This document shows, in pieces, positions 30,742 through 32,259 of a stretch of DNA of 64,000 nt. Both the position numbers and the translations under genes were made by a program. The notes under the pieces were generated by a model that was given only the letters and a program-made list of their open reading frames with translations, was not told where the DNA came from and made no database searches. The stretch covers positions 1,054,001 to 1,118,000 of the forward strand of contig NZ_CP121197.1 in the NCBI RefSeq assembly GCF_029625215.1, read 5' to 3'. Origin of the DNA: Aurantibacillus circumpalustris. Its GTDB lineage: Bacteria; Bacteroidota; Bacteroidia; B-17B0; Aurantibacillaceae. Position 1 is the first letter of the stretch; each line of letters opens with the position of its first letter.

Positions 30742-30759
30742 CTTAACAATTACATAACA
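30742..30759 (+). promoter_or_regulatory. Pho-box-like direct repeat upstream of porin
   Basis: CTTAACA and CATAACA, 11 bp apart start to start, as in PhoB direct-repeat boxes. Lies 63 nt upstream of the porin ATG. A better copy precedes the next gene, a phosphate transporter. Confidence 0.55.
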
Positions 30760-30821
30760 TTGTATTCTCTTTATATTAATGTAGTCGCGCGTATTTTACT
30801 CTCGATTAATAATTAATTTAC

Positions 30822-32174
30822 ATGAGAGCAATATTAAATTTACTTACACTTCTGGTTTTATGTTCGACATCGCTTTATTCACAGAATAGTGAAGCGGCAC
30901 TGCCTAATGATAGTTTATCGAAAGAAATAAACCGTATAAAAAAAGATATTGCACAGCTTAAAAATTTAAAAATAAGCGGGTGGGTACAAGCTCAATTTCA
31001 AATTGCTGATACCAGAGGAATCTCTAACTATGAAGGCGGAACTTTTTCAGCCAATTCAGACAAACGTTTTATGATTCGTCGCGGGCGCGTGAAATTTACG
31101 TATAATGGAAAACACACTCAGTATGTTATGCAGTTAAATGGAACAGAAAGAGGATTAAATCTTACCGAAATATTTGCAACGGCAACCGATCCGTGGACTA
31201 AAGCTTTTTCCATTACTGCCGGCGTAATGAACAGACCATTTGGTTTTGAAATTGATCAATCCTCATCTGTAAGAGAGAGTCCGGAGCGTTCCCGTTACAC
31301 TCAAATTTTAATGCCAAATGAGCGCGACTTAGGAGCAAAAATTGTAATTGCCCCTGGAGATAAAAGTAAACTGCATGGACTAAGATTGGATGCTGGATTC
31401 TATAACGGTCAAGGTATTTATGTACCGGGCACAAGCACTCCCGCAGGATATGCTGCGGGTACAACACCTCTTTTAGGTGTAAATGAAGTTGACTTTCAGA
31501 AGGATTTTATTGGAAGGTTGAGTTATTATAAAGGATTTAAAAACGATAAAATAAAAATTGGTATAGGCGTTTCACATTATAATGGGGGCAATACTTACCA
31601 GAATAATAAAGTATACGATCAAATTACAAATGATCAAGATGGCTTAAAAGTCTGGAAAATGGCAGATACTACCAACAAAACATTTAAAAACAAGACCGCG
31701 CCACGCATGTATTATGGTGCCGAGGCATTTTTTAGTATTAAAACAACGCTTGGAACTACAACTATTAGAGGTGAATATATTACAGGAACACAATCTGGTC
31801 AAAACAACAGCAGTAGCAGTCCATTTTTCTTACCTTCTTCAAAAGACACGTATATTAGAAACTTCAATGGCATGTACGCATATTTTATTCACAGAATAGC
31901 AAAAACAAAACATGAAATCGCTGTAAAATATGAGATTTATGATCCAAACACCAAAGTTGCAGGAAGAGATATTACAAGTGCTACTGTGAATGGACTTTCA
32001 AGCGCAGATATTAAGTTCACTCAATTGGGCCTTACCTATACGTATTATATGTACGAAAACGTAAAATTTATGTTTAACTACAATATCGTGACCAACGAAA
32101 CAACCAATTTAAACGGGTTTACTAAAGATATTCGCGACAATATCCTGACAATTAGGATGCAATATAAATTTTAA
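30822..32174 (+). CDS. Outer-membrane porin, phosphate-selective O/P type
   Basis: 450 residues. A signal peptide (MRAILNLLTLLVLCSTSLYS) is followed by a short coiled-coil stretch (KEINRIKKDIAQLKNLK) and then a 16-strand-like barrel with SGWVQAQFQIADTRG, RFMIRRGRVKFTYNG and PFGFEIDQSSSVRESPERS, ending in IRMQYKF. This is the layout of the OprO/OprP porin family, which takes up phosphate or polyphosphate. The Pho-box-like site upstream and the Pit transporter downstream agree with that role; the ion itself is inferred. Confidence 0.82.
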   Translation: MRAILNLLTLLVLCSTSLYSQNSEAALPNDSLSKEINRIKKDIAQLKNLKISGWVQAQFQIADTRGISNYEGGTFSANSDKRFMIRRGRVKFTYNGKHTQYVMQLNGTERGLNLTEIFATATDPWTKAFSITAGVMNRPFGFEIDQSSSVRESPERSRYTQILMPNERDLGAKIVIAPGDKSKLHGLRLDAGFYNGQGIYVPGTSTPAGYAAGTTPLLGVNEVDFQKDFIGRLSYYKGFKNDKIKIGIGVSHYNGGNTYQNNKVYDQITNDQDGLKVWKMADTTNKTFKNKTAPRMYYGAEAFFSIKTTLGTTTIRGEYITGTQSGQNNSSSSPFFLPSSKDTYIRNFNGMYAYFIHRIAKTKHEIAVKYEIYDPNTKVAGRDITSATVNGLSSADIKFTQLGLTYTYYMYENVKFMFNYNIVTNETTNLNGFTKDIRDNILTIRMQYKF

Positions 32175-32190
32175 GACATAGGTATCTTTT

Positions 32191-32208
32191 CTTAACATTA
32201 ACTTAACA
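32191..32208 (+). promoter_or_regulatory. Pho box upstream of phosphate transporter
   Basis: Two identical CTTAACA heptamers exactly 11 bp apart (32191 and 32202), 51 nt upstream of the ATG. A -7-like TATATTTA starts 8 nt after them, the spacing expected for a PhoB-activated promoter that lacks a -33 box. Confidence 0.7.
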
Positions 32209-32259
32209 TTCTGTTCTATATTTACAGATAGTTTTACCGATGTTTTAAAAATATACTTT

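Follow-up and report, generated by a model that had tools for sequence, protein, structure and literature searches.

The PhoP repeats of Bacillus subtilis are of the TTAACA type with an 11-bp period, and the repeat of the Escherichia coli PHO box is of the CTGTCAT type. By definition a PHO box has two direct-repeat units of 11 nt, and seven bases of each unit are well conserved (PMC4415409); this and the following accounts are given as they stand in the available portions of the cited papers. For PhoP of R. anatipestifer, which is raised in phosphate starvation, DAP-seq gave a motif whose most conserved nucleotides are TTTAACA, and this resembles the motif of ArcA, an E. coli regulator that also belongs to the OmpR family (PMC9603813). 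PhoB of B. fragilis binds the pstC promoter. Under phosphate limitation the pst genes are down in the B. fragilis phoB mutant, and the phosphate/sulphate permease BF3715 is changed by -52.2; in the wild type under limitation BF3715 is unchanged, one porin O is up and another is down (PMC3547664). OprP of F. johnsoniae (Fjoh_0542) showed no induction on phosphate depletion in the available account (PMC8115612). At the promoter level, TAnnTTTG is the sigma-A -7 box of F. psychrophilum, and for TAnnTTGY (SM5), together with SM4 and SM6, the authors consider alternative sigma factors most likely (PMC9723704). Among the papers listed in a literature search of partial coverage, none was seen that gives a Bacteroidota 11-bp Pho box with promoter spacing.

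Repeats before porin and phosphate importer genes

The window analysed here is a stretch of 64,000 nucleotides from the genome of Aurantibacillus circumpalustris, a single contig of 4,604,442 bp. A porin gene and the gene of a Pit importer follow one another on its + strand, and MscL and an OmpA-domain protein are encoded upstream of the pair (Table 1). The preliminary description had reported two 7-bp repeats with an 11-bp period before both genes; both pairs were found in place, with the same period in the two boxes. When the window was scanned with up to three mismatches, 15 places were obtained against 15.7 expected, which is chance level, and 0 or 1 mismatch was seen only at the porin and Pit boxes.

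Table 1. Features of the porin-Pit region, in window coordinates
Feature	Position	Strand	Details
Putative Pho-box-like operator, porin gene, CTTAACA-N4-CATAACA	30742..30759	+	CTTAACA 30742-30748, CATAACA 30753-30759; 1 mismatch; one of the seven exact or one-mismatch places in 4.6 Mb; 62 nt from box end to ATG 30822
Probable -7 element, porin promoter, TATTTTAC	30792..30799	+	32 nt past box; conserved form TAnnTTGY, here TTA for TTG
Outer-membrane porin, 450 aa	30822..32174	+	Family alignment and fold match
Putative Pho-box-like operator, Pit gene, CTTAACA-N4-CTTAACA	32191..32208	+	CTTAACA 32191-32197, CTTAACA 32202-32208; one of two exact genomic copies; 51 nt from box end to ATG 32260
Conserved -7 element of Pit promoter, TAGTTTTA	32229..32236	+	Exactly 20 nt past box
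Pit-type phosphate importer (PHO4 family), 467 aa	32260..33663	+	PF01384, E 5.7e-87

The PHO4 domain profile (PF01384) is spanned by the Pit protein over its full length, positions 1-350 of 350. The top NCBIfam model for this protein is PitA, at 402.8 bits and below the model cut-off of 800, and its closest relatives sit in contigs labelled Bacteroidia, Bacteroidetes, Sphingobacteriaceae and similar. The window porin matched no Pfam family, phosphate-selective porin O/P (PF07396) included, and a PDB sequence search with its profile gave no match; Porin_O_P is matched by 9 of the 15 members of its alignment. For its predicted barrel (pLDDT 71) the best fold match is an OprO mutant (E 3.1e-12, TM 0.50-0.53), and OprP ranks sixth among fold matches that include many general porins.

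A search of the entire genome returned two exact copies of the motif, one at Pit and the other 44 nt before pstS. One mismatch was seen at five further places, two of which are the window porin and the porin directly before pstS; the remaining three do not point at a gene start, two being intergenic and one inside a coding frame. Of these seven exact or one-mismatch sites, four thus stand before two parallel units, porin-Pit and porin-pstS, and both units are boxed at each partner. Apart from the pair known from the preliminary description five of the seven sites remain, and two of them fall at the two starts of the pst locus (binomial P about 1e-8). This locus reads porin, pstS, pstC, pstA, pstB, phoU, where pstS and phoU are matches to TIGR02136 and TIGR02135, pstC, pstA and pstB were named from their translations, and the porin matches Porin_O_P (E 4.2e-12). 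A gene for a SpoIIE-type phosphatase follows phoU (L015:13409-15412). As in the PHO box, two 7-nt direct repeats lie 4 nt apart before pst and Pit genes.

The expectation of the preliminary description that the motif would recur before other phosphate genes was borne out at pst, by the exact copy before pstS and the one-mismatch copy before the pst porin, but not at phoA, as the PhoA family (PF00245) has no match in the genome. The PhoD family (PF09423) has none there either, so predictions for PhoA and PhoD are without footing in this genome. With up to two mismatches the genome holds 87 places for the motif and 81 for the reversed control, showing no excess, and the motif combined with a -7 element, at up to three mismatches, was found 152 times against 177 in the control. 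Since no excess over controls is seen at looser matching, only near-perfect copies are informative within one genome, and degenerate boxes are not listable with confidence. A PstS-like periplasmic binding protein is encoded elsewhere (L016:6137-12348, genome 984136-990347) within a cluster of exbB, exbD, exbD, tonB, the binding protein and a TPR protein (names from translations), and some 190 nt ahead of the first gene of this cluster there is a box with two mismatches.

Relatives and promoter spacing

Among 61 family genomes (the own genome and 60 others) the exact motif was found at 39 sites and the reversed pattern at 6; 26 of the genomes carry an exact site and 35 do not. Outside the own genome there are 37 exact sites, near-identical genomes being counted separately (L148, L149). 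Of these, 14 precede porins (three assigned by weak similarity: L141, L145, L161), 11 precede Pit genes and 12 precede other or unassigned genes. Nine of the last 12 are from G015 and G023, which belong to the same genus. Products encoded behind the 12 sites are, among others, an OmpR-type response regulator (L172), a TonB-dependent-receptor-like protein (two sites), a T9SS-sorted secreted protein, a thiolase and a glycerol-3-phosphate acyltransferase.

Larger arrangements of repeats were also seen. In G023 a TonB-dependent-receptor-like protein is preceded by six repeats of the NTTAACA type (L170:1549-1619), which follow one another every 11 bp except for one larger gap, and a similar site is present at L079:433-503; the six-repeat array of L170 is a putative complex Pho operator. 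In G015 the gene of the OmpR-type response regulator (L172:1244-1936) has the exact box with more repeats upstream, which possibly reflects autoregulation of a regulator of the Pho type.

Pit genes were followed through the best 79 of 215 relatives, of which 77 could be scored, L050 and L077 being too short upstream. A box of at least 11/14 was found in 69 upstream regions, of at least 12/14 in 53 and of 14/14 in 15. At the same three thresholds the reversed motif gave 9, 3 and 0 and the other strand 3, 1 and 0, and 5 of 3031 background windows reached 12/14. Upstream DNA of 1600 nt or more was available at 72 loci, and in 33 of them a gene of the porin cluster lies directly before Pit; in these pairs a box of at least 12 is present at 30 porins and 23 Pit genes, and at both genes in 22. 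Many of the loci are related, hence these counts are not independent.

A PstS-family match of some kind is present in 59 of the 61 family genomes, many of them low-scoring. Of the 30 strong matches 28 were examined as loci; one of these (L187) has no readable gene, so that 27 loci, with that of the own genome among them, were compared. In four of these pstS is preceded by a box of at least 12/14, and in five others such a box precedes a porin at the head of the operon; in the other 18 no box of this score was seen at either position within the DNA examined. From a phylum-wide search for Pit 30 loci (L209-L238) were read, with a box of at least 12 in four; one of the four is the window locus itself, and another, L236, is a broken match that falls short of the family cut-off. 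In these loci no box was found at Pit genes that follow a small gene of DUF47-type appearance, as judged from its translation; some Pit genes without such a partner do carry the box, and it is exact at a 760-aa Pit of another family (L235). Control by an accessory protein and control by a Pho box may be alternatives at Pit genes.

The distance to the promoter was read from the best box in each region, picked by motif score, with the -7 element playing no part in the choice. When 68 distinct Pit promoters with a box of at least 11/14 were aligned on the box, the consensus was NTTAACA-TTAAC-TTAACAT, and TAnnTTT stood 20 nt past the box in 40 of them. Longer segments were available for 70 Pit promoters (the 69 regions scoring at least 11 and the window); TAnnTTT[AG] was present at +20 in 42 and TAnnTTGY nowhere within 60 nt past the box. 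For the gene that precedes Pit a set of 34 'porin' promoters was compared, comprising 30 from the porin cluster, two of other genes (L079, L084), the window porin and the own pst porin; L057 was left out since its upstream gene is a Pit. In this set TAnnTTG[CT] was found at +32 in 16 promoters and TAnnTTTG in none. Shuffles with slightly looser patterns gave means of 0.43 at +20 and 0.24 at +32, with maxima of 4 and 3.

In the own genome Pit (TAGTTTTA, 32229) and pstS (TAATTTTA) match TAnnTTT[AG] at +20 exactly, and the repeats, the 20-nt spacing and TAnnTTT occur together with zero mismatches only at these two genes. The pst porin has TAGTTTGC at +32, and the window porin has the looser TATTTTAC. 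In related porin promoters the columns between the box and the -7 element resemble a weak, degenerate third 11-bp repeat. A -7-like box of the Pit gene had been described earlier at a shorter distance. The sequence, TATATTTA, is indeed present at 32217-32224, 8 nt past the box, but it is not conserved; TAnnTTT[AG] occurs at +8 in 1 of the 70 promoters, the window itself, against 42 at +20, and it was rejected as the Pit -7 element.

The importers with TAnnTTT[AG] at +20 and the porins with TAnnTTGY at +32 have the operator in common, and perhaps not the promoter class. We tentatively suggest that one phosphate regulator may serve two Bacteroidota promoter classes, the importers having sigma-A type TAnnTTT[AG] at +20 and the porins TAnnTTGY about 11 bp further, behind the third repeat. 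If so, porin output would require phosphate starvation together with a second sigma-factor signal.

Candidate regulator and rival readings

Nine OmpR-type regulators are encoded in the genome, and the best PhoB match among them is the one at 1286842 (L126/L135). It scores 228.7 bits with TIGR02154, below the cut-off of 296.2, and the next regulator scores 183.5; of the nine it alone has RTIDVHIRKLR in the C-terminal, DNA-binding part. Two genomes of the family (L183, L189) have a regulator 73-74% identical to it in divergent orientation to pstS, and in L183 a 12/14 box lies between the two genes. In the own genome the candidate is divergent from a TonB-dependent receptor, which is followed by a T9SS-sorted secreted protein. 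These neighbours recall the phoBR cluster of F. johnsoniae, in which a TonB-dependent transporter and an exoprotein (Fjoh_0545, 0546) adjoin phoB (PMC8115612). Neither phoR nor a phosphate transporter was recognized among the frames around the candidate (L135), and the site upstream of it is weak (11/14, within noise). The PhoR model TIGR02966 gave 43 matches, none above its cut-off, and the best of them (L203) is without a box.

The presence of the motif at a second porin-importer pair and in many relatives makes it very probably the landing site of a phosphate-starvation regulator. The earlier reading as a PhoB box is supported by the exact copy before pstS and by conservation at the porin and Pit genes of relatives. 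With the positions, conservation and promoter geometry observed here, we consider it likely that the repeats represent the PHO box in its Bacteroidota form and act as a phosphate-starvation switch on porin and importer, to which PhoB would bind and through which low phosphate would induce and activate both genes. On this scheme a PhoB-type response regulator would bind the NTTAACA repeats head-to-tail in phosphate starvation. Before Pit and pstS, 20 nt separate the end of the box from the TAnnTTT[AG] -7 element downstream, a distance that would place the second repeat near the usual position of the -33 element, and the bound regulator could recruit RNA polymerase in place of that element. At the porins the -7 element, in the TAnnTTGY form, would lie about one 11-bp step further down, behind the degenerate third repeat. 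The outer-membrane pore and the inner-membrane importer would thus be switched on jointly in two units, porin-Pit and porin-pstSCAB-phoU.

The same spacing would also fit CTTAACA being a mere variant -33 element of ordinary sigma-A promoters, used without any regulator, as the end of the second repeat, 20 nt before TAnnTTT, falls at about the -33 position. This is highly improbable, as the first repeat 11 bp upstream would be left unexplained, and so would the rarity of the motif, with two exact genomic copies, and its concentration at phosphate genes. The thought that the repeats merely reflect chance resemblance in AT-rich DNA draws on the counts at up to two or three mismatches, which are not clearly above the controls; it is scarcely credible and can be regarded as already refuted by the 53 of 77 Pit regions against 3 for the reversed motif and by the pst result.

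Other rivals accept the operator and differ in what is bound or in the outcome. PhoB might bind the box and repress Pit, a low-affinity importer that would yield to Pst in starvation. In some proteobacteria the Pit genes are PhoB-repressed, and the low-affinity Pit system of E. coli and Sinorhizobium is either constitutive or repressed; the lack of a rise of BF3715 in wild-type B. fragilis under limitation, in the portion of the account available, points the same way (PMC3547664). Yet the own Pit and pstS genes share an identical box at an equal 20-nt spacing from the -7 element, which makes opposite signs unlikely, and the 52-fold decrease of BF3715 that mutation of phoB causes in phosphate-limited B. 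fragilis is a sign of activation (PMC3547664), so that repression of Pit appears quite improbable. It is unlikely, too, that the repeats are bound by some other OmpR-family regulator, reaching anion transport by chance, in place of the PhoB orthologue. The nine regulators of this type offer candidates, and the R. anatipestifer motif is similar to that of E. coli ArcA (PMC9603813), but the sites centre on phosphate transport genes, and the candidate is the best PhoB match, with relatives adjoining pstS and, in L183, the box in between. A phosphate-starvation switch operated by a PhoB-type regulator thus seems to account best for the repeats.

Comparison with described Pho systems

Pit importers are often thought to be constitutive, and here one stands under the same box as pst. 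An outer-membrane pore and an inner-membrane importer appear to be wired together twice in one genome, and a Pho box with fixed promoter geometry would allow some of the phosphate regulon in environmental Bacteroidota to be predicted from the sequence. The repeats have a half-site and period near-identical to those of B. subtilis PhoP; phylum and promoter type differ. Like the boxes described here, the E. coli PHO box consists of 7-nt direct repeats with a 4-nt gap at phosphate transport genes (PMC4415409). Unlike that box, the repeats here are NTTAACA, and their partner is a Bacteroidota -7 box 20 nt away. In B. fragilis, too, dependence on PhoB is seen for pst, for a phosphate/sulphate permease and for a porin O, whereas the available account gives no binding motif and the permease does not rise in the wild type (PMC3547664). 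The R. anatipestifer PhoP is alike in being a Bacteroidota regulator of the Pho type with a TTTAACA half-site; its account, in the portion available, is without the 11-bp spacing, the porin-importer pair and the promoter geometry, and other direct targets are named (PMC9603813). The half-site was partly known before, and the spacing of the repeats, the pairing of porin and importer and the two proposed promoter classes are the part added here.
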